Source of the DNA: a virus
Direction: 5' to 3' (one strand)
IMG/VR virus record: IMGVR_UViG_3300010430_000252
Span: 1-36,269 of that record
DNA length: 36,269 bases
In this document: piece after piece, positions 16,203-33,932 of the stretch
Layout of the letters: the number at the start of each line of letters is the position of its first letter
Position numbering within the stretch: position 1 is the stretch's first letter
Position numbers and translations under genes: made by a program
The notes under the pieces: model-generated
Databases searched by the model: none
What the model saw: only the letters and a program-made list of their open reading frames with translations
Told to the model about the DNA's origin: nothing

Positions 16203-16697
16203 TCATTTCTTGTATATCTCACCGGCACCGCTCAAAAGAGACGCCCCGGCTTTGAAAAAACCTTGCCTGGATGCATTCTTACCAGACATGCGTTGAAGCT
16301 GTGCAGACTGTTCCAGTCGTGTCGCGTTGACATCACCCTGGTTTCGGATGCGCAGCGCGTTCAATTCGATCTCACCCGCGAAGTCCTCGGTCGAAAGCAA
16401 TGGCGACCCGGTAGAGAAATCAACCCCGGATGCCCCACCCATTGCCCTACGCGCGGCCATGAGGCGGCTTTGCTGGCGGCGGAAGTCTTCCTCTCGCGCT
16501 GCGGCTTCCTGTCTCTCACGGGCCGCCTGCTGCTGCTGGACGGCAGCCTGAAAGTTGGCTTGATTCTTTGCCGCTTGACCCTGGGAAATCGCTCCAATCG
16601 CACTAATCCCGGCGGCGGCGGCTGATAATGCCGTCCCTGCGGATATACCCCCTGCCGCTGCGGAAGCCCCCACCGTACTTGTAAGAACAAGACCCAT
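16203..16697 (-). CDS. internal virion protein (T7 gp14-like), 164 aa
   Basis: ATG 16697 overlaps the upstream stop as TGATG. The first 40 residues are an Ala/Gly hydrophobic segment (GASAAAGGISAGTALSAAAA, GISAIGAISQGQAAK). A long Gln/Ala/Arg helix follows (FQAAVQQQQAARERQEAA), then a conserved-looking tail SGVDFSTGSPLLSTEDFAG. This hydrophobic-then-coiled-coil design is characteristic of gp14-type virion core proteins, which insert in the outer membrane during DNA ejection. The C-terminus is basic (GEIYKK). Confidence 0.8.
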   Translation of the reverse strand: MGLVLTSTVGASAAAGGISAGTALSAAAAGISAIGAISQGQAAKNQANFQAAVQQQQAARERQEAAAREEDFRRQQSRLMAARRAMGGASGVDFSTGSPLLSTEDFAGEIELNALRIRNQGDVNATRLEQSAQLQRMSGKNASRQGFFKAGASLLSGAGEIYKK

Positions 16698-17140
16698 CAG
16701 AACACCCCCATGTAAGATGATTCAACCGGACGGAGGCCCATCCGTTCATAAACTTGACAGACCTTTTTCGGACTTGTCATCAGCGCCTTGAATGTCACAA
16801 TCCGGTCTCCAGCCCGCGCCTTGACTTCCCGAAGCAACCGCAATGCCGTGGTTTTTGGCGCACTGCGTGATGTCCAAAAAAATATTTCATCACCGGCTTC
16901 AATATTCGGGTTCCATAGGTGCGGGCCGTACATCATCCCCAGTCCCCCGACCACAGACCCCTCATGCTCAGCCACGATGACCTCGATCCCCGGAAATGAC
17001 ATTACCCGTGCAATCGCTTCAATTAGCTTCTCGTCCGTCTCAGGCAAGAACTCCGTGTATTCCATGCGCGAAAAGAAGTCCTTGGCCCCATCGACAATGG
17101 CCAGCGCGTCCTTTTCCATATCTGCGGTTCTAATAATCAT
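16697..17140 (-). CDS. GNAT-fold protein at the T7 gp13 position, 147 aa
   Basis: The frame extends to 17236, but ATG 17140 forms ATGA with the upstream stop and starts MIIRTADMEKDALAIVDGA, the usual first strand of a GNAT domain. Later elements are IEVIVAEHEGSVVGGLGMMY (strands 2-4), then a C-terminal half with VCQVYERMGLRPVESSYMGV. The acetyl-CoA loop (Q/RxxGxG/A) is not obvious. T7 gp13 (internal virion protein A, about 138 aa) belongs to the acetyltransferase-like clan and sits exactly between gp12 and gp14. A virion assembly role is therefore more likely than an enzymatic one. Confidence 0.75.
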   Translation of the reverse strand: MIIRTADMEKDALAIVDGAKDFFSRMEYTEFLPETDEKLIEAIARVMSFPGIEVIVAEHEGSVVGGLGMMYGPHLWNPNIEAGDEIFFWTSRSAPKTTALRLLREVKARAGDRIVTFKALMTSPKKVCQVYERMGLRPVESSYMGVF

Positions 17141-20082
17141 TTCAGCGGGTTCATGTTTACTTCTGGGGCAATGGCAAGAAGCGTAAACGGTGACGGGGAG
17201 TCGCTCTTTACAACAATCCGGGAATCCGTTGTCCACTTGCCATCAAACGAATAATGGCGTTCCCCGGTAAACAGCGGGACAGCGGTATCCATCGCATCAG
17301 ACACGTTGCGGAAGTCTCTTGTTTGCAGGTTGTCCTCGCTCGGGCCGTAACTGACGGAATGACAATCGAGGAATACGAACGTCGCGCCATAAGTCCGCTT
17401 GGTCCTGCCAACTGCCGTCCCGGCAGGGTTTCCGCCCTCAAATTTGAGGCTCTTGAGGTTATGCGAGTACCCAAGGCCCGCCTGCGCAACCGAGGCGGCG
17501 TTATCCAGCGTAATTCCGCCACTTGAAACGGTTTCATCCGGCCTTACAGCGCCATCGGCCCAGACCTTCAACGTCTCGCCCTCAAGGTGGTCATATCCCG
17601 TCAGGGCCGTTGCGGCGGTGCTGTCATACGTGATCAGGCTATCAACGTAATAGGCGTCCGCAGGATCGTCTTCGCCCTCGAAGTCACGCTCGAAAACCTC
17701 GATATATCTTTTTGTAGCGCCGTTGATGGTGCGCTTGACGATCACCCAGACCTCGTCCCGGTCTTCGCTGGACTGTGTTTGCCCAGACCCGTCCGCACCC
17801 GGAATGACCGTAACCGATTCCACTTTTGCAATGGCCGGGATAAATCCCTGGTCAAGTACGGGATTGGTCGTGTAAACGGTCGTGATCTTCGCCCGGATGT
17901 AGTATAGCCCGCGCCCCGCGTTTAGCTGGCGCGACTTCCAGTCAGTCGGTTCGGTGAATGTGAGCGAAAGGTTATCTGCCGCCGCCGTGGTAAAGCCCGC
18001 CGTTCCATCCGTGACACCCGTCAACGCGGCCCACGCCGAACCGTCCCAATATTCCCAAGTCACGGCCCCGCCGACACCTGCTGTTCCATTGGCATAATCG
18101 AAAATAACCTTTGTGAACTTCTCGGTGTGTCCAATCGCGACATAATCCCCTGTTGCTTCGGTTCCGGGGAACACTGTCCAATCCGCATTCGATGTGCTGT
18201 TGGCGTCCGTTGTCTCGTCTACGAATGTCCCGGCGCTATCGTCGGCTTGCCAGACCTGCGTAATCGTTCCGTATGTCGATCCGCCGAGAATATGCCGCCC
18301 CCATCCCACCACATCTTCATCCCGGCGATATGTCATGGACAGCAATTGCCCATCCGCACGAACCGCCCAGAGAAGCGAATCAGGCTCCTCGGCGAAGTCC
18401 ATTTCCGTAATGCCCCCCGCCGTAATGTGCTGGGCAAGCCGCGTCATGTCCGGGGCCTTGAATCCGTCGTCTTCAAACGAGAATGCAAACTCACGAAGTT
18501 TCCGGCCCGCGCGCTGAACGAACAATACAACGTTGCCCACCCTGACGGGCTGGACCTGCGCTGAGCCGTGCGTTGTCTGACGCCTAACAGTTATATCCGA
18601 AGGCGTGAGAACGGACCCCGTGGATGACGGCACCCATTCCCCGCCCATCGTGCCTATGACCAGCGTATCCTTGCCTGCACTCATCCATCGGATTGCGTTT
18701 ACGTTGTCCGAGGAAATCGTGTAATCCAGGCTGTCGTCGTCTTCGACCGTCGCATCCCATACGCCGGAGGAATTCGCACTATCCGGCGACATGGCTTCAA
18801 AATCAGCCGTGTTCGACGCCCAGAATGTCTGGGGCTGGTCTGTGGTTGCAGCGGAATAAAGCCTTTGTTCGTAGAATGTGCCGGTCTGCGGATATCCGGT
18901 TGTCCCTGACCACGAACCTAACCGCCAGCGGGTGTCTGCTGAATTTTGCCCAAAGGCCCTTTTTATATCCACAACGGCAACGGTCGTGGACGTGATACTG
19001 ACAATCACCCCCCAGCCCCAATCAACGCCGGATGCAGGGTTATCGATCCTGATCAACCGCCCAATATCCGTGGACTGGAACCCGGCCCCGTCATTTACGC
19101 CCACTATTGAGGATGCAGTGACGTTGACGCCAAGCCCCGTGGTTGCTGCCGGAGTCATGGTCGTTGACGTATCGTTCATGGGAAGCCAAGGGCCGTCTTG
19201 CCACGGCACTTCAACAAGGCTCCACGTCGTATGCCCGAACCTTTGAAGCTTGTACGTAGGATAGCTGCCATGGAATAAATACAGGACATCCGCCGATTGC
19301 GGGCCGCTGACTTGAAACAAGTCCGCCTCTGCATAAGGCGTATCGATTTCTACGCCCGCATTGTCTACAAGCGAGACATCATCGATCTGCACGTCCTTGT
19401 TGGCATTTGACCCTTTATTGCGGAACTGGATATAAAACGGGCTTGTCGTTGGCGTAAACGCAACACAATGATACCCGACCTCTTTTTCGACGGCTGCGAG
19501 GGTTTGCGCCCCGCTTGCCGCCGTTCCTACCTGAAATTCTATCTTATCACCCGGTGCACCGATGACCCGGAACTTCAAAACGTGTTCGGTCCCCGTGGCA
19601 GTGGTCGTAATATCCTGTTCCGCCCAGCCGATATCGTCGGCAGCCGTCCCGTTGGTTTCAAGCGTCAGTCTGCCGTTCGTGGAATCATGGGAAATCGTGT
19701 TGCCGGTGCCGCCCGTAGACCTATCATCCCATCCCGTAATGTTCGACGCAAACGTGCCATTCGTTACCGCCGCATCCGTGTTGGCAACCGTGATCTGGCC
19801 TTGGTGGCGATAAAACCGCATAACCCCAGCGCCCAATTCAAGGCAATACGCCTGAATTGTAGAAAACTGAAACCGCATTAACCGGCCTACAACAGTCGAA
19901 GATTTAAGCTCAGCAATGTACCGCGTTCCCGGCCTGCGCCTTGCGCCGCCCTCCGAAAGCGGAATGAAGTTTTCAAGCTTTTCCAGACCAGCAGGATATT
20001 TGACGAAATCCGTGCGCGCGGCCAGTCTCGGAGACAGTTCCCCGGCGTTAAAGCTTGGCGTGAAAAAATGTACGCGGGGCAT
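17137..20082 (-). CDS. tail tubular protein B / nozzle-like (gp12 position), 981 aa
   Basis: ATG 20082 overlaps the upstream stop as TAATG. The N-terminus MPRVHFFTPSFNAGELSPRL, with AARTDFVKYPAGLEKLENFI and GGARRRPGTRYIAE, is the hallmark of a large family of podophage tail proteins related to the T7 gp12 nozzle. The remainder is beta-rich with inserted carbohydrate-binding-like modules, for example residues about 110-245 (NITGWDDRSTGGTGNTIS through NKDVQIDDVSLVDN). That explains a length above gp12 (794 aa). The protein would close the tail tip and may contact the host surface through the inserted domain. Confidence 0.85.
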   Translation of the reverse strand: MPRVHFFTPSFNAGELSPRLAARTDFVKYPAGLEKLENFIPLSEGGARRRPGTRYIAELKSSTVVGRLMRFQFSTIQAYCLELGAGVMRFYRHQGQITVANTDAAVTNGTFASNITGWDDRSTGGTGNTISHDSTNGRLTLETNGTAADDIGWAEQDITTTATGTEHVLKFRVIGAPGDKIEFQVGTAASGAQTLAAVEKEVGYHCVAFTPTTSPFYIQFRNKGSNANKDVQIDDVSLVDNAGVEIDTPYAEADLFQVSGPQSADVLYLFHGSYPTYKLQRFGHTTWSLVEVPWQDGPWLPMNDTSTTMTPAATTGLGVNVTASSIVGVNDGAGFQSTDIGRLIRIDNPASGVDWGWGVIVSITSTTVAVVDIKRAFGQNSADTRWRLGSWSGTTGYPQTGTFYEQRLYSAATTDQPQTFWASNTADFEAMSPDSANSSGVWDATVEDDDSLDYTISSDNVNAIRWMSAGKDTLVIGTMGGEWVPSSTGSVLTPSDITVRRQTTHGSAQVQPVRVGNVVLFVQRAGRKLREFAFSFEDDGFKAPDMTRLAQHITAGGITEMDFAEEPDSLLWAVRADGQLLSMTYRRDEDVVGWGRHILGGSTYGTITQVWQADDSAGTFVDETTDANSTSNADWTVFPGTEATGDYVAIGHTEKFTKVIFDYANGTAGVGGAVTWEYWDGSAWAALTGVTDGTAGFTTAAADNLSLTFTEPTDWKSRQLNAGRGLYYIRAKITTVYTTNPVLDQGFIPAIAKVESVTVIPGADGSGQTQSSEDRDEVWVIVKRTINGATKRYIEVFERDFEGEDDPADAYYVDSLITYDSTAATALTGYDHLEGETLKVWADGAVRPDETVSSGGITLDNAASVAQAGLGYSHNLKSLKFEGGNPAGTAVGRTKRTYGATFVFLDCHSVSYGPSEDNLQTRDFRNVSDAMDTAVPLFTGERHYSFDGKWTTDSRIVVKSDSPSPFTLLAIAPEVNMNPLK

Positions 20083-20687
20083 TAGTCAGGCCACCTCTGC
20101 AAACCATGCCTCGACGACGCCCACGATCCGCGCGGACGCTGACGCGGGAACGACCCCATGCCGTCAGCAGAACGAGCTTGTGCCATGAGCCTATCGGCTT
20201 TCCTGGCAAGCTGGTCTTGGAGCGTATTCGATGACGTGAGATCGACCGCCATTTCACTGGCAAGGGTGTATGCCAGCAAGCGCCGGAAGTCCGCCGTCAT
20301 AATATTTGGATCAGTCTCACGCGCGATATAGGTTAGCCACACGTTTTCAACATCTGTTTCAATAACCCGCTGCCCGCCGACCTGAATCATGCGATAAAGA
20401 AACGTCCCAGTCCCGGCGTCGTTGTCGTGAACGGCTACAGTCCTCAGCCAGTCCGAAGGCAATGAGAAGGCGTTGTCGAACTCATACGCTGGTGCCGTTG
20501 AAGATTCGGCAAGTGCCACTTTCTTCGTGGCAAAATTCCAGTTGTGCGCCCGCAGCAAAGCATCGCGCAAATCCGAATACAGATCATTAACCGCGTTCGC
20601 CTCGTTCGTGCCTTGCGTGAAAGACGTGATCGTATCTGCCCCGAGGTATCGGAGCGCGGCGTTTGCAATGTCTGTTTCGCTAGGCAT
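20082..20687 (-). CDS. tail tubular protein A / adaptor (gp11-like), 201 aa
   Basis: ATG 20687 with TAGGAGCATGAACC upstream. Motifs typical of the gp11 family are MPSETDIANAALRYLGADTI, AVNDLYSDLRDALLRAHNWN, FATKKVALA, FSLPSDWLRTV and the C-terminal LLAYTLASEMAVDL helix. The protein forms the ring joining portal to nozzle. The Arg/Pro/Trp-rich tail (FPRQRPRGSWASSRHGL) is likely flexible. Its last base is shared with the start of the nozzle gene. Confidence 0.9.
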   Translation of the reverse strand: MPSETDIANAALRYLGADTITSFTQGTNEANAVNDLYSDLRDALLRAHNWNFATKKVALAESSTAPAYEFDNAFSLPSDWLRTVAVHDNDAGTGTFLYRMIQVGGQRVIETDVENVWLTYIARETDPNIMTADFRRLLAYTLASEMAVDLTSSNTLQDQLARKADRLMAQARSADGMGSFPRQRPRGSWASSRHGLQRWPD

Positions 20688-20698
20688 GGTTCATGCTC

Positions 20699-21244
20699 CT
20701 AGAAGGCGTAGCGCCCGATTTCGATTTCTTTTGCACACTTTTTCGCGACGTAATCGGCAAGTTCCGGCGTGTACCAGTCCCGGTAATGCGGATGGTCTTT
20801 GCCGCTGATCGAAACGGCGGCATTCGGCACGAAGTCTTCAAACTTCCTGATTTCATCAACGATCACTTCGCCGCCTTCGGAAAGCCAGTCGATGCAGGTG
20901 GTGTCACGGGCTTTAATCCATTCTTCAAAGTCCATGTTGGCCCGGTTCATCGGCCCGTTTCCGCTGCCGCCGGGAAGCGCCTCTTTAACCCTGTTCGGGC
21001 CGACTGAAAGATTCGCGTTATACATGGAAACAAGCCATTCCCACGGATTGCGGATAAACCCGAACGTGTGGTATTCATCCCACTTTTCACCCCATGCACG
21101 ACGCATCTCGACGGCAGAATCATGCTGCCCGCCCAACCTGAGAAGATGTCCGCTGCACACGTTGTCCAGGTAATGACAAAACGTACTTGATGCTGTGCGC
21201 GGCACCCTCACATAGATGAATTTGAACGTGTCAGAGCCGTACAT
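20699..21244 (-). CDS. sulfotransferase family 2-like protein, 181 aa
   Basis: The frame extends upstream but ATG 21244 overlaps the previous stop as TAATG and starts MYGSDTFKFIYVRVPRTASS. Residues 13-21 (RVPRTASST) form the 5'-phosphosulfate loop and 62-75 (GFIRNPWEWLVSMY), with R65 and S73, the 3'-phosphate-binding element of PAPS-dependent sulfotransferases. A conserved-type KFEDF occurs near residue 140. Predicted reaction is transfer of sulfate from PAPS to a hydroxyl or amine, here probably a glycan or protein of virion or host. It is embedded between capsid and tail genes with two Rossmann-type neighbours. Confidence 0.8.
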   Translation of the reverse strand: MYGSDTFKFIYVRVPRTASSTFCHYLDNVCSGHLLRLGGQHDSAVEMRRAWGEKWDEYHTFGFIRNPWEWLVSMYNANLSVGPNRVKEALPGGSGNGPMNRANMDFEEWIKARDTTCIDWLSEGGEVIVDEIRKFEDFVPNAAVSISGKDHPHYRDWYTPELADYVAKKCAKEIEIGRYAF

Positions 21245-21744
21245 TATGCAGCCCCCCGAAACGGATATGCTGGAATGTCCGTCAACAGCGGACACCCTTC
21301 CGGGACAACCAACTCCACCCCTCTTTCCTCTGCCAATCGCATGAAATGCTTTACCCCGTATCTCTCAAGCCAGTATTCGCTTTCGTAGTCCATTTCGACG
21401 CCCCACAGCCCGAGAACATCGACATTTTCAAGAAGCGCGTCTGCCATCATCCATGCGACGGAATTAGTCAAAAACTCAGTCCCGAACGCGGCCTCTATTC
21501 GATCCGCCTGAATCAACGTGCCAACGTCCGGGAAAAGAGAGTAAACATGCACGGCATTTAGGAACTCCATATAACGCGGCTTGTCTGAAAACGTGTCTGC
21601 CGAATGAACCTCGTAGAACCTGTCGCACCTTTCGATCAGGTCGCATGTTCGCCACCCCGTTGCCCATACTTCCCACCGAGGGCTATGGAACGGCGCATCA
21701 ACCCCCGATGGACCGGACGCCACAATGGCAACCCGGCGCGTCAT
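21244..21744 (-). CDS. Rossmann-type protein, paralogue of 22216-22974, 166 aa
   Basis: ATG 21744. N-terminal VAIVASGPSG (residues 5-14) is a glycine/serine nucleotide-loop after the first strand. EVWATGWR, DRFYEVHS, YMEFLNAVHVYS, SVAWMMADALL, VDVLGLWGVEMDYESEYWLE and ELVVPEGCPLL follow in the order seen in its longer paralogue. The layout recalls DUF115/MptE-like and sialyltransferase-like Rossmann proteins that handle nucleotides or nucleotide sugars. It starts immediately before the sulfotransferase (TAATG) and is therefore co-translated with it. Substrate unknown. Confidence 0.65.
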   Translation of the reverse strand: MTRRVAIVASGPSGVDAPFHSPRWEVWATGWRTCDLIERCDRFYEVHSADTFSDKPRYMEFLNAVHVYSLFPDVGTLIQADRIEAAFGTEFLTNSVAWMMADALLENVDVLGLWGVEMDYESEYWLERYGVKHFMRLAEERGVELVVPEGCPLLTDIPAYPFRGAA

Positions 21745-22202
21745 TAAGCGGCCTTGGAAACGAACGCTTCGGCAGCTTCCTTGCCGCCGTCATCTTTTGC
21801 AAAGGACGCGAGAACATCGTCACCCTTCACAACGTCGAATGCCTTCTTGCCGGGGTTCCACTTAACCGCCGCGACTTCATCCTTTGCTGGGGTTTTGGCT
21901 TCCCACCAGTCGCCGATCTGCGCCCAGCGCCGCGCCTTGACGGCCTTGGTCATTGTCGATGCCGGACCCGTGTCAACCGTTTCAATGGATTCCATGCTGG
22001 CAGTTACGATGAACTCGGCATGCGACAGCAATTCCTGACGGTCGTGCGAAACGAACAGGATGCGGAACGATGTTCCAACATCCCATCCCTGCACTTGGAG
22101 AATCTTCGGGATTTCGACATCCAGGTCCACAGCCTCGCGCGGTTCGCGAATAAAGACCTTCGGGTAATCCGGGGTAACGACGATTTCAGGTTTGACGATC
22201 AT
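21744..22202 (-). CDS. hypothetical protein in the capsid-tail cassette, 152 aa
   Basis: ATG 22202 follows GAGAAAGGACGTAAA. It opens with strands (MIVKPEIVVTPDYPKVFIRE). Its middle includes SFRILFVSHDRQELLSHAEF and VTASMESIETVD. The C-terminal 60 residues hold ARRWAQIGDWWEAKTP and a lysine-rich segment (WNPGKKAFDVVKGDD). It lies between two paralogous Rossmann genes. No known motif; possibly a virion or assembly protein, possibly a partner of its neighbours. The complementary-strand frame over it is a shadow. Confidence 0.6.
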   Translation of the reverse strand: MIVKPEIVVTPDYPKVFIREPREAVDLDVEIPKILQVQGWDVGTSFRILFVSHDRQELLSHAEFIVTASMESIETVDTGPASTMTKAVKARRWAQIGDWWEAKTPAKDEVAAVKWNPGKKAFDVVKGDDVLASFAKDDGGKEAAEAFVSKAA

Positions 22203-22215
22203 TTTACGTCCTTTC

Positions 22216-22974
22216 TCATGTTAACGTTTCAAGCCAGTCAAGAACTTCCAGCGCCCCCATCCGCTTGGCATAGTCTTCGCGCAGCGTCGGGATTTGCGAC
22301 TGGAGAGAATGAATAATGTCTTGTGTCTTTTTCTGTTCCGCCAGATGTTCGGCTTTTTGCGCGTTGATCTTGAAGCGGAAATCCGTCATGTGTGGGTATG
22401 GAGATTGCTCATAGCAAAGGTCGCTTTCGGGCGGCAAAACGATATTGATGCCCTTCGCTTCCAGTAGCTTTTTGAAATGGAAAAACCCCTTCTTCTGTGA
22501 ACGGCGTTCTTCGTTCGATCCGAAGTCGCAGCCCCAGAAGCCGACTTCCGTGATATGGTCAAACTCCCCGTCATAGCTTGCATGAATCCATGCCATCATC
22601 GTGGCAATAGTGCTATCGAGGAAAAAAGCACCGCCATTACCGTCCCCGTAATCCTTGACGACGCGGTCCCACGGGAAAGCAACTGCGGATTTAATCCGGG
22701 GATCAAGAGGCGGCTGCATGTAGATCGGGCGGTCCTCGACTCCCATCAGGAAATCGAGGTAGCCCGGCGTTTCTTTGTTGAAGGCAGGGTCGAATTCCCG
22801 AACAAGATGGAATTCAAACCAGCGATGCCAAACGCGACGTTCTGTTTCGTCAACGGCCTCATTCTGTGGACCCATCAACCAAACTTCTGTTTGTTCGTCG
22901 CCGATAGGGGCGAGATGACGTGAAGACGGCGAGGTGCCGACAATGGCTATTTTGTCCATCTTCACGTCACTCAT
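22216..22974 (-). CDS. Rossmann-type protein with C-terminal coiled coil, 252 aa
   Basis: ATG 22974 (ATG 22959 also possible). KIAIVGTSPSSRHLAP (residues 8-23) parallels the VAIVASGPSG loop of 21244-21744. The two proteins also share EVW...G, W.FE.H, YLDFL, STIATMMAWI, ITEVGFWGCDFGSNEE and INIVLPPESDLCYE in the same order. A coiled coil occupies the last 60 residues (QKAEHLAEQKKTQDIIHSLQ). The fold suggests nucleotide or nucleotide-sugar binding (DUF115/MptE-like); no activity can be assigned. It is the first gene of the modification-like cassette downstream of the capsid genes. Confidence 0.65.
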   Translation of the reverse strand: MSDVKMDKIAIVGTSPSSRHLAPIGDEQTEVWLMGPQNEAVDETERRVWHRWFEFHLVREFDPAFNKETPGYLDFLMGVEDRPIYMQPPLDPRIKSAVAFPWDRVVKDYGDGNGGAFFLDSTIATMMAWIHASYDGEFDHITEVGFWGCDFGSNEERRSQKKGFFHFKKLLEAKGINIVLPPESDLCYEQSPYPHMTDFRFKINAQKAEHLAEQKKTQDIIHSLQSQIPTLREDYAKRMGALEVLDWLETLT

Positions 22975-22995: not shown

Positions 22996-23571
22996 TTACG
23001 ACAGCGCGTAAGCCGCTGCCGTGTTAGTCGTGGACGAAGTTGCGTGGATTGACCCAACAATCAGGTATTGGGTCGTTGACGCGGCGAGCAAGTCCACACC
23101 GGAGCCAATGGCCCCGAGCGTGAGCGTGGTCGCCCCGGTCGATCCGAACATCAAGCTGCCCGTGGTGCCGATAGCATTGGCAGCCACGCCGGTATTGATG
23201 CACCGCAGGAAGTCGCCTTTCGTCGGGCTGGACGAGGCAACATACGTCCCCGCCGTGGTCCCAGCCAGAAGGTTCGCACCCACTTTCATAACGCTCGCGG
23301 TCGTCGCCGTGTGAAGGGCGCGGGCGTTAAGGTCGCGGGTCGTGACGGACCCGGACGATACGGAAACAACTTCCAGCGTGGTAACGCCGTCTGTGCCTTT
23401 GACCGTAATCAGGTCATCAGCAACAAACCGCTGGCTGTCGTCCGTGTTGTTGAAATATCCCGCAGTATTGACGGTTGCCAACGAATCGGAGTTGGCGTCA
23501 GCATCGTAATAGAAATGCTTCTTGTCGTTACCGTGAGACAGAAGAACGAGGTCTTGAAAATCAAAAGCCAT
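22996..23571 (-). CDS. capsid-associated (decoration/head) protein, 191 aa
   Basis: ATG 23571 after AGGAGGGCTGAAAA. Beta-rich and Ser/Thr/Ala/Gly-rich (ITVKGTDGVTTLEVVSVSSG, GTTGSLMFGSTGATTLTLGA, TQYLIVGSIHATSSTTNTAA), with an N-terminus FQDLVLLSHGNDKKHFYYDA. Its place directly after the major capsid gene and its composition fit a head decoration or minor head protein. The name rests on position and composition, not on a recognised motif. Confidence 0.65.
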   Translation of the reverse strand: MAFDFQDLVLLSHGNDKKHFYYDADANSDSLATVNTAGYFNNTDDSQRFVADDLITVKGTDGVTTLEVVSVSSGSVTTRDLNARALHTATTASVMKVGANLLAGTTAGTYVASSSPTKGDFLRCINTGVAANAIGTTGSLMFGSTGATTLTLGAIGSGVDLLAASTTQYLIVGSIHATSSTTNTAAAYALS

Positions 23572-23584
23572 TTTTCAGCCCTCC

Positions 23585-24478
23585 TTATGTCGTCGGGATG
23601 GCGGCGGTGTCGTCGAGGTTGCCTTCGATGACGCCCGTGTCATCGATCAAGCAAGCCTGACCGCTCATCATGTTGTTGACGAAGTGTGCAGCGCGATCAC
23701 CGTGCCAGGTGATATCCGCCGACACCGGTGCGCGACCGGCAACGTTTCCGGCAGATGCCGCAACCGCATACCCGATGGCCGATTTGTGCCAGATGAAGCA
23801 CTTGGCAGTGGAAGTACCTGCACCCGGCAAGCCGGTCTGCATTTTCCACTTGATGCCCATCCAGTCTTTCCAACGGCCCGGCATGGAAACAGGACCGGAG
23901 CGGAACGACTGACCGTCAGCGCCGACATAATCGGCGTTCTGGAACTGATCCAGAAGCATCAGTTGCGACCAGTAACGCGCGGTCACGGCGCAATAAACTT
24001 CGCCGTCGTTCGGCACGTCGTTGGCCCATGCCGCTTCGGCAAACTCAAGCGCCGTTGCGAGAATGTTGGCCTTGGTCGTCACCGTGAGCGTCACCGTGGT
24101 CTGGGTCGTGGTGTCGAGAACCGTGGTAATCTGGTCATCCACCTTGCGGCCCAGCGCCATTGCGCCGCCGTTGGCGATCACATCGCGTTCGTTGATGTTG
24201 ATCTTGGCTTCGTCCAGCTTATCCACCCAGTCACCGGCGTAGAAGTCGGCAAGGGTGCATTGCGGGGCGGTGTGGGTTTGGTTCATCGGCGTGATGGTGC
24301 CGTGACGCGCTTTGGTCGTCGCGGTGCCGGTGCCGACTTTCTGGAATACCGCCGTGGAACCGACGACATCCGTTTTCATTCGCACGGCGTCTTTAAGCTG
24401 CGACCCCTTGCGCTGGAACACTTCATGCACTTTCGCTTCAAACGAAGTGATGAAGGCAGTATCGATTGATGTGGACAT
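23585..24478 (-). CDS. major capsid protein, 297 aa
   Basis: ATG 24478 with GGAGG eight bases upstream. Sequence elements typical of the podophage capsid family (HK97 fold) are FEAKVHEVFQRKGSQLKDAV, the early strand PQCTLADFYAGDWVDKLDE, the helix LATALEFAEAAWANDVPNDG and RYWSQLMLLDQFQNADYVG. It ends with MMSGQACLIDDTGVIEGNLD. Length suits a capsid subunit without a scaffold fusion; the scaffold gene is the next one upstream. The gene has its own promoter and a structured leader, as expected for the most abundant virion protein. Confidence 0.85.
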   Translation of the reverse strand: MSTSIDTAFITSFEAKVHEVFQRKGSQLKDAVRMKTDVVGSTAVFQKVGTGTATTKARHGTITPMNQTHTAPQCTLADFYAGDWVDKLDEAKININERDVIANGGAMALGRKVDDQITTVLDTTTQTTVTLTVTTKANILATALEFAEAAWANDVPNDGEVYCAVTARYWSQLMLLDQFQNADYVGADGQSFRSGPVSMPGRWKDWMGIKWKMQTGLPGAGTSTAKCFIWHKSAIGYAVAASAGNVAGRAPVSADITWHGDRAAHFVNNMMSGQACLIDDTGVIEGNLDDTAAIPTT

Positions 24479-32313: not shown

Positions 32314-32701
32314 GGGCCTTCGCCTCCAATTCGACTAATCGGCGTTCTACCTCATCATCCGACATGCCGCGCGTCTCTATCGGCCCGCCATCCTTGCCGG
32401 TCAATTCTTCAACCTTGGTTTCCTTCCAGCCCATACGGGTTTTAGACCACCAAATCGCTGCCGTCGTGTCGCCGTTGATAGCCTTGTTGTAAAGCGTCCC
32501 GCCAATCTTGGCGTTTGCCTTGACCGCTGCCGTGTCTAGTTCCCTGCGGAAGTGTTTACGCAACGTCTTGTCGTCGATGCCGTCACGGATAACGAGGCAG
32601 ATACTCTCCTGCGGAATACCGACCGCGCTCATTTGCTCGACCAGTTTGCGCTCGTCGTCAGTGGGCTTGAAAGAAGGCTTTGTGACTTTTTTAGGCGGCA
32701 T
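32294..32701 (-). CDS. terminase small subunit, 135 aa
   Basis: The frame opens further upstream, but ATG 32701, inside the last codons of the methyltransferase, gives the expected MPPKKVTKPSFKPTDDERKL start. A helix-turn-helix-like DNA-binding region follows (VEQMSAVGIPQESICLVIRD, DDKTLRKHFRRELDTAAVKA). A second helical part comes next (GGTLYNKAINGDTTAAIWW SKTRMGWK) and then an acidic tail for contacts with the large subunit. It recognises the phage DNA for packaging. The adjacent large-subunit gene makes the assignment firm. Confidence 0.85.
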   Translation of the reverse strand: MPPKKVTKPSFKPTDDERKLVEQMSAVGIPQESICLVIRDGIDDKTLRKHFRRELDTAAVKANAKIGGTLYNKAINGDTTAAIWWSKTRMGWKETKVEELTGKDGGPIETRGMSDDEVERRLVELEAKARGSDGG

Positions 32702-33932
32702 CTCTTTTGTTAGTGGGGAAAATCTCTCCACTACCCTCTAAAACTGCTTGATTTCCGGTGAAGTTTTGCCAGCGTTTAACTGCTACATCGACGTAAGCGG
32801 GCGACAGTTCGATGGCATAAATGCAGCGCCCCGTCATTTCCCCGGCGATGATTGTCGTGCCACTCCCTGAGAATGGTTCATAAACCGCTTGGCCGGGGCT
32901 TGAGTTGTTCTCGATTGGTCGCTTCATGCATTCAACGGGCTTTTGCGTGCTGTGACCTGTCTCAGATTTAATGGGCTTATCAATCTGCCAAAGTGTTGTC
33001 TGCTTTCTATCACCGCAATAGTGACCTGTTTTGTTTTTCTTTACCGCATACCAGCAAGGCTCGTGTTGATAGTGATAATCCCCACGGCTGATAGCAAATT
33101 GCTGCTTGGCCCATATAATCTGCGAACGTATTTTAAATTCACAAACCTCTAGGCTATCCACAACGGTCTTGGCATGCTGACCAGCATGCCAAACATACGC
33201 AACATCGCCGGGGAATAAAGCCCAAGCCTCAGACCAATCGGCGCGGCTATCGTTCTCAACCTTACCTATGGCGCTCGCGCCATAGGGCTTGCCATTGGCT
33301 CTGTCTGCCTCATTCCGCCAATTCGCGTCATACTCCACACCATAAGGCGGGTCCGTGACCATTAGGTGCGGCGAAACCCCACTTAATAGCTTCTCAACAG
33401 CGTCTGCATCCGTACTATCCCCGCACATCAGCCGATGCTTGCCGAGTATCCAAACGTCACCGAGTTTCGTTACCGGATCGTCTGGCACGTCAGGCACTTC
33501 GTCTGGATCGGTCAGCCCTTCGGTCTTTTCAACGAATATGTTGGCTAACTCGTCATCGCTGAAACCAATCAACGAAAGGTCAAAGCCTTCCTCTTGCAGC
33601 CCGACCATTTCAAGCGCGAGCAGATCCATATCCCATCCGGCGTTTAATGCCAGTTTGTTGTCCGCGATAATGTATGCCTTGCGCTGTGTGGGCGTCAGGT
33701 GCGCGAGTTCGATTGTCGGGACTTCGGATAGCCCTAACTTCCTTGCTGCTAACACGCGGCCATGACCGGCGATTATACCGCCTTCCTCGTCCACTAGGAC
33801 AGGGTTGTTAAAGCCAAACTCTTTGATGCTCGCCGCAATCTGCGCCACCTGCTCATCGCTATGCGTTCTGGAATTTGACGCATACGGGATGAGCTTTTCG
33901 ATTAGTGTGTTTTTGATTGCAAGGTTAGGCAT
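32691..33932 (-). CDS. DNA (adenine/cytosine-N4) methyltransferase with ParB-like N-terminal domain, 413 aa
   Basis: Residues 1-130 are a ParB/Srx-type domain (IPYASNSRTHSDEQVAQIAA, GGIIAGHGRVLAARKLGL at 51-68). The rest is a class beta amino-methyltransferase: catalytic DPPYG (194-198) precedes the AdoMet motif EPFSGSGTT (352-360), with HSTQKPVE before it. It would methylate an exocyclic amino group in a short DNA motif, protecting phage DNA or altering host regulation. The ParB-MTase fusion is common in phages. ATG 33932 overlaps the GcrA-like stop by eight bases. No restriction endonuclease gene adjoins. Confidence 0.9.
   Translation of the reverse strand: MPNLAIKNTLIEKLIPYASNSRTHSDEQVAQIAASIKEFGFNNPVLVDEEGGIIAGHGRVLAARKLGLSEVPTIELAHLTPTQRKAYIIADNKLALNAGWDMDLLALEMVGLQEEGFDLSLIGFSDDELANIFVEKTEGLTDPDEVPDVPDDPVTKLGDVWILGKHRLMCGDSTDADAVEKLLSGVSPHLMVTDPPYGVEYDANWRNEADRANGKPYGASAIGKVENDSRADWSEAWALFPGDVAYVWHAGQHAKTVVDSLEVCEFKIRSQIIWAKQQFAISRGDYHYQHEPCWYAVKKNKTGHYCGDRKQTTLWQIDKPIKSETGHSTQKPVECMKRPIENNSSPGQAVYEPFSGSGTTIIAGEMTGRCIYAIELSPAYVDVAVKRWQNFTGNQAVLEGSGEIFPTNKRDAA

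Follow-up and report, generated by a model that had tools for sequence, protein, structure and literature searches.

What do a predicted sulfotransferase and two Rossmann-type proteins do between the capsid and tail genes of a podophage? The question is raised by the IMG/VR virus record IMGVR_UViG_3300010430_000252, which was analyzed over its whole length of 36,269 bases and is referred to here as the window. Its late genes lie on the minus strand in the order portal, scaffold, major capsid protein (MCP), a cargo region and tail tubular protein A (TTPA), and from MCP to TTPA the cargo region reads u191, R1, U152, R2 and ST. Taking the evidence as a whole, we consider it reasonably probable that R1, R2 and ST form one of several versions of a glycan cassette that can be exchanged and that this podophage lineage carries between its capsid and tail genes. 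The genes concerned are the following, PAPS being 3'-phosphoadenosine 5'-phosphosulfate.

23585-24478, minus strand: MCP (PF19821, E 3.4e-57; phrog_3437, E 2.6e-54), the upstream border of the cargo interval.
22996-23571, minus strand: u191, a predicted capsid decoration protein (residues 1-81) with a spike-like beta domain (84-178), from AlphaFold and structure matches; candidate acceptor.
22216-22974, minus strand: R1, 252 amino acids, a predicted glycosyltransferase of GT42/MptE-like fold (AlphaFold model, Foldseek, VIA-align).
21744-22202, minus strand: U152, a conserved gene between R1 and R2, with homologues in relatives.
21244-21744, minus strand: R2, a Rossmann paralogue of 166 amino acids from a sialyltransferase-like family, 27% identical to R1.
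20699-21244, minus strand: ST, a predicted PAPS-dependent sulfotransferase of 181 amino acids (PF03567, phrog_3347).
20082-20687, minus strand: TTPA-like gene (phrog_394 tail protein, E 4.4e-50), the downstream border of the interval.

The TAATG overlaps at the U152/R2 and R2/ST junctions, together with the short R1/U152 and ST/TTPA gaps, are consistent with one operon. A first-pass annotation had described the sulfotransferase and two paralogous Rossmann genes as a modification cassette, and the open reading frames (ORFs) and motifs were found where it had put them. The paralogy also stands, as R1 and R2 are 27% identical across 187 alignment columns (E 9e-15), beyond chance. The two genes are, however, not adjacent to each other, since U152 (21744-22202), which had been missed, lies between them, and u191 (22996-23571), the decoration/spike gene upstream of R1, had been left out of the cassette. 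U152 matched no Pfam or PHROG family; its homologues sit between cargo and TTPA in many relatives, usually directly before the tail tubular gene, and it is probably structural rather than cargo.

The interval was followed in MCP relatives from viral contigs, of which the best 80 of 360 were taken, with ORFs called greedily and only on the capsid-gene strand, some of them spurious or mis-started. In this MCP-selected set (loci are designated by L numbers), 38 contigs carry TTPA downstream and 14 of these 38 MCP-TTPA intervals exceed 1.5 kb; 16 more run at least 4 kb past MCP without reaching TTPA, and 26 are uninformative. A table of intervals over all loci, in which 22 of 46 are long, contains loci chosen for R, and the MCP-selected subset was used instead. 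Lengths above 1.5 kb were seen in 0 of 75 portal-scaffold, 1 of 89 scaffold-MCP and 0 of 42 TTPA-TTPB (tail tubular protein B) intervals, counted over 97 sequences, among them the window, a single phage record and loci that had been selected by R. In the cultured relatives HTVC010P and Hodr, the MCP-TTPA interval holds only 1-2 small genes or spans ~0.75 kb or less. The MCP-TTPA interval is a cargo hotspot in the relatives from viral contigs. Most of the bacterial genomes with MCP relatives are alphaproteobacterial, and 80 genome loci, which are more distant, show less of a contrast: MCP-TTPA exceeds 1.5 kb in 7 of 74, as do scaffold-MCP in 5 of 19 and TTPA-TTPB in 4 of 67. By reading, clear sugar cargo was found only in L109 among these seven long intervals, with a possible single gene in L098. 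The two closest genome matches, L098 and L099, are MAG contigs placed in other phyla (binned as Dependentiae and Nitrosospira) and have MCPs 80-85% identical to that of the window; one of them equals an IMG/VR contig of this set in length (25,416 bp), and they are probably misbinned phage contigs.

The content of the interval was surveyed by running Pfam on 140 randomly drawn interval ORFs and on 140 control ORFs from the flanks, with counts taken per family. Among the first 25 of 59 families, the interval ORFs gave DegT aminotransferase (11), B12-binding (10), radical SAM (9), transketolase pyrimidine domain (9), E1 dehydrogenase (5), glycosyltransferase (5), nucleotide-sugar dehydratase/epimerase (4), GNAT (4), GHMP kinase (3), NeuB (2) and cytidylyltransferase (2), whereas among the first 25 of 26 families of the controls, which include terminase and phage families, only GNAT (4) recurs. 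Judged by these profile matches, enzymes of sugar-nucleotide type dominate the interval cargo. The window itself encodes a GNAT-type acetyltransferase (phrog_1249) at 16697-17236, immediately after the nozzle gene, and GNAT is also found among the relatives' control ORFs.

The modification cassette of the first-pass annotation is strongly supported by these relatives, which carry whole sugar-nucleotide pathways in the interval, and R co-varies with the spike-like domain of u191. Cassettes of the R type include genes for a PseB-like dehydratase, DegT aminotransferase, WbuX, HisF2/WbuZ, a cytidylyltransferase, GNAT, a methyltransferase and NeuB. WbuX and WbuZ/HisF2 are acetamidino genes of nonulosonic acid pathways. 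Genes of nonulosonic acid type (clusters C12-C14) are present in 4 of 7 R-bearing and in 0 of 47 R-free informative MCP-selected loci (p 1.1e-4), and a NeuB-type synthase and CMP-sugar (cytidine monophosphate-sugar) synthetase are found in the R-bearing relatives L036, L066 and L074. As most NCBIfam matches of the cassettes fall under the equivalog cutoffs, with WbuX passing, no particular sugar is assigned. In L036 and L066, whose cassettes combine R with NeuB, no other recognised glycosyltransferase was found among the clusters typed, which leaves R as the candidate transferase. A tblastn search of 50,697 phage records with WbuX gave no match.

A second type of cassette appears to be a sugar pathway with an unnamed product and was never seen with R. 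In it the Rossmann family C0 is accompanied by enzymes of the B12-radical SAM and thiamine-diphosphate types; 12 informative loci contain its radical SAM gene, and 0 of these carry R. It was read downstream of MCP in L004, L007, L011, L017, L020, L027, L028, L038, L039, L041 and L042 as a B12-binding radical SAM gene, which in most loci is accompanied by a DegT aminotransferase, by halves of a thiamine-diphosphate enzyme or by both, and in some loci by a GHMP kinase similar to D-glycero-D-manno-heptose 7-phosphate kinase. In phage records the radical SAM gene matched solely Streptomyces phage SF3. C0 was considered as a relative of R and rejected (hhalign probability 5.8). The radical SAM ORF at L021:7407-9659 is 750 amino acids long vs ~477 in relatives, with, by eye, an intein-like insert near CLSGDTPV. 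A GT29 sialyltransferase-like ORF (PF00777, above cutoff) lies at L070:10074-10763 in the capsid-tail interval of an R-free phage, and the cargo protein at L051:9301-10341 is MptE-like, just below cutoff. Modification of DNA bases by the cassette was set aside, as the listed Pfam families included no partner that modifies bases.

The gene that varies together with R is u191. Its AlphaFold model (22 sequences) has a predicted local distance difference test score (pLDDT) of 81.1 and a predicted template modelling score (pTM) of 0.55. Residues 2-81 align with the icosahedral capsid chain 9eg4_H of LME-1 (89 residues) at Z 12.7 and a root-mean-square deviation (rmsd) of 2.0 over 79 residues with 24% identity, and residues 83-178 align with tailspike 24qj at Z 11.7 and rmsd 1.8; the latter part also matches CBA120 TSP4, T4 gp9/gp10 and the Pa223 capsid spike (Z 8.3). 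From this model u191 is predicted to be a capsid decoration protein with a spike-like outer domain; a sequence search of the PDB gave no relevant match. The combined content of Ser and Thr is 29.6% in its spike half, 21.0% in its first half and 16.5% in MCP. In most R-free relatives u191 has only the first domain (~97-110 amino acids), vs 184-219 amino acids in R-bearing ones. A spike-domain profile matches 17 of 19 R-bearing vs 0 of 119 R-free loci that extend at least 2 kb after MCP, counts that include training rows, as R-bearing loci supplied 14 of the 17 proteins used to train the profile. L074, read by frame, adds an eighteenth spike (18 of 19), while L014, L035 and L068, which also carry the spike, end too early to score for R. 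In the R-free loci L016, L025 and L073, a long u191 carries, by reading, a different second domain, to which the spike profile gave no match. An MCP tree of 90 rows shows 10 changes of R, of which supported branches force no fewer than 8, and in 8 independent pairs, with spike labels coded by hand from the profile and frame-reading results, the spike goes with R in 7 and is opposed in 0 (p 0.0156). L184, retrieved by the spike alone, carries R together with WbuX, HisF-like and PseB-like genes. L194, retrieved by u191 alone, has two R-profile matches; its spike region falls below the profile threshold (E 1e-3), yet matches the u191 of the window over residues 1-181.

These observations bear on where the glycan would be placed. 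The first-pass annotation had proposed virion or host-surface glycans as the target; of the two, the virion is favored because of the operon position, the co-variation with the spike and the lack of a flippase, polymerase or ligase among the interval ORFs. That lack follows from the 227 interval ORFs of at least 110 amino acids, none of which has two or more hydrophobic segments. Remodeling of host surface glycans, for superinfection exclusion or receptor masking and with an incidental late-operon position, has a minor though real chance of being correct. The same sugar enzymes make bacterial surface glycans, and phage genes that alter host nonulosonic acids are described in PMC12053666 and PMC6586298; however, such a role does not fit well with a cassette inside the head-tail operon, with co-variation with a domain of a capsid protein, or with the absence of multi-spanning membrane proteins (0 of 227 interval ORFs).

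The next question is whether R could be the transferase. In R1, residues P23, W32, H56, G148 and E156 are conserved without exception across 26 homologues, and H47 and E123 of R2 correspond to H56 and E156; R2 is also 54% identical to the second R gene of L015. The AlphaFold model of R1 (13-sequence alignment; pLDDT 83.6, pTM 0.70) has a Rossmann domain (1-190) followed by a long C-terminal helix (196-251). In a Foldseek comparison with the PDB, the first 11 rows are all GT42-type sialyltransferases (best E 6.2e-4). With VIA-align, R1 aligns with CstII at Z 9.2 (rmsd 3.6, 159 residues), a Pasteurella sialyltransferase at 9.0, CstI at 8.8, MptE at 8.3 and mammalian sialyltransferases at ~6. Sialyltransferases and MptE as top solved-structure matches are what the first-pass annotation had guessed. 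The modeled fold of R1 is thus sialyltransferase/MptE-like, and fold alone leaves function unsettled. R could be a nucleotide-binding enzyme of MptE/thiamin-pyrophosphokinase type, or a non-catalytic partner of the spike, rather than a glycosyltransferase: MptE (Z 8.3) and thiamin pyrophosphokinase (Z 8.0) score within ~1 of CstII and R matches no glycosyltransferase profile. We regard this as improbable, given that Foldseek places GT42 first by a clear margin, that H56 and E156 are invariant in all 26 homologues and that R is co-located with a CMP-sugar pathway that has no other recognised transferase. Finally, that the interval just tolerates insertions, the genes being morons unrelated to the virion and the spike linkage hitchhiking, would suit the varied cargo, the joint exchange of adjacent genes and the several genome loci with longer intervals of unrelated or unassigned ORFs, but is highly improbable when carbohydrate-type enzymes dominate the cargo and are nearly lacking from matched controls and when the R-spike pairing is repeated independently on the MCP tree.

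R has no useful Pfam or PHROG match for a family of its own among 14 homologues; a PDB profile/sequence search gave no relevant match, and a single-protein sequence search of viral contigs gave no relatives. Of 289 sampled genomes of one class, 0 gave a match to R; the positive control for this search, a fragment in the own genome of L101, was detected. In the phage collection R1 gave a single weak match, to a gene adjoining terminase in Microcystis phage Mvi-Yong1342-1 (L001:5908-6711), so that the R family is not restricted to the capsid-tail interval; the annotation of this homologue as a 'type 11 methyltransferase' is probably wrong.

For ST, the sulfotransferase call of the first-pass annotation holds by profile, and PAPS-dependent sulfate transfer is predicted. 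ST matches Pfam Sulfotransfer_2 (PF03567) at E 5.9e-6, its 27 bits passing the curated cutoff of 22 bits, and phrog_3347 'Galactose-3-O-sulfotransferase' at E 2.7e-4. The sequence contains both VRVPRTASST and FIRNPWEWLVSMY, which we take to be the 5'-phosphosulfate and 3'-phosphate binding motifs, with Arg in place of the usual Lys. ST probably starts at the ATG at 21244, which overlaps the stop of R2 (TAATG), and not at the GTG at 21295. ST is 30% identical to an ORF in the MCP-TTPA interval of L082, and sulfotransferases of other Pfam families recur beside R in L083/L084, a near-identical pair, and, by clustering, in L088. No ST relatives were found in viral contigs by single-protein sequence search, tblastn of the 50,697 phage records gave no match and a PDB sequence search gave no relevant match. 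Near the terminase genes, at 32691-33932, the window also encodes a fusion protein that joins an N6/N4 DNA methylase to a ParB-like domain, the latter scoring slightly under its cutoff.

On balance, the mechanism that we favor is cytoplasmic glycosylation of capsid spikes followed by sulfation, all within the late operon, for which we infer the acceptor, the donor, the activity and the order of the steps. The R proteins would be soluble glycosyltransferases of sialyltransferase-like fold that transfer an acidic sugar from its CMP-activated form, most likely a nonulosonic acid or 3-deoxy-D-manno-octulosonic acid (Kdo). Transfer would take place in the cytoplasm, either ahead of capsid maturation or while it proceeds. 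The acceptor would be the spike domain of u191, encoded just upstream of R1, and ST would next sulfate the glycan or the protein, using host PAPS. The relatives would supply their own sugar pathway; as the interval of the window contains no donor pathway, its phage is assumed to draw on a CMP-sugar of the host (CMP-Kdo or CMP-nonulosonic acid).

Several results weigh against this reading and need to be considered with it. No NeuB-type synthase, CMP-sugar synthetase or recognised sugar-donor pathway was found in the MCP-TTPA interval of the window, and the link between R and nonulosonic acid genes is not significant over supported tree pairs (median p 0.25). The match of R proteins to the GT42 profile (CST-I in Pfam, at E 1 or better) is 0 of 14, as is that to MptE-like/DUF115 (PF01973), and the R1 fold also fits nucleotide pyrophosphokinases. 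L082 has an ST-like gene without R and L071 has R without the spike. Being adjacent, the spike and R may be passed on as a unit although neither acts on the other, and as cassettes of the other type are present in spike-less phages, the spike is not the acceptor everywhere.

More tentative is the possibility that the capsid-tail interval plays the part in phages that an O-antigen locus plays in bacteria: a serotype locus that recombines and, through its cassettes, gives each podophage a different sugar coat on its capsid spikes. R would then found a new CMP-sugar protein glycosyltransferase family, and the coat would be sulfated in the window. If true, environmental podophages swap whole glycan pathways to vary the capsid surface, as bacteria vary O-antigens; the presence of sulfotransferase and nonulosonic acid genes in phage genomes would be explained, and a new protein glycosyltransferase family would have a named candidate acceptor one gene away.

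Among known systems, the GT42 enzymes CstI and CstII of Campylobacter jejuni and 9c08 of Pasteurella multocida share their fold with R1 residues 3-189 (Z 8.8-9.2). GT42 sialyltransferases are soluble CMP-sugar enzymes; R differs from them in its 11-17% identity, the lack of a profile match and its place in a phage late operon. The MptE-like/DUF115 family (PF01973) likewise has its fold in common with R1 (Z 8.3), whereas R has no PF01973 match. From the pseudaminic and legionaminic acid pathways, PseB-, NeuB-, cytidylyltransferase-, GNAT-, WbuX- and WbuZ-like genes adjoin R in relatives; here, however, they are phage-encoded between capsid and tail, and absent from the interval of the window. 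In mycobacteriophages Che8 and Rita (and, as proposed, Maravista), glycosyltransferases encoded by the phage are described, together with glycans bound covalently to major capsid proteins, in the available text of PMC11256854; these are other phages, and that text mentions neither a sulfotransferase nor an acidic-sugar pathway. Marine OM43 phage genomes encode a sulfotransferase whose phage function the authors call unclear; it is of PF13469, whereas ST is of PF03567, and no glycan cassette is mentioned in the available part of PMC10580990. The gene pseI is listed among marine phage auxiliary genes in PMC6359870. Within the search terms used and in one open library, neither a glycan hotspot between capsid and tail genes nor sulfation of phage virions was found to have been reported. 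Phage virion glycosylation and phage sulfotransferases are already known.

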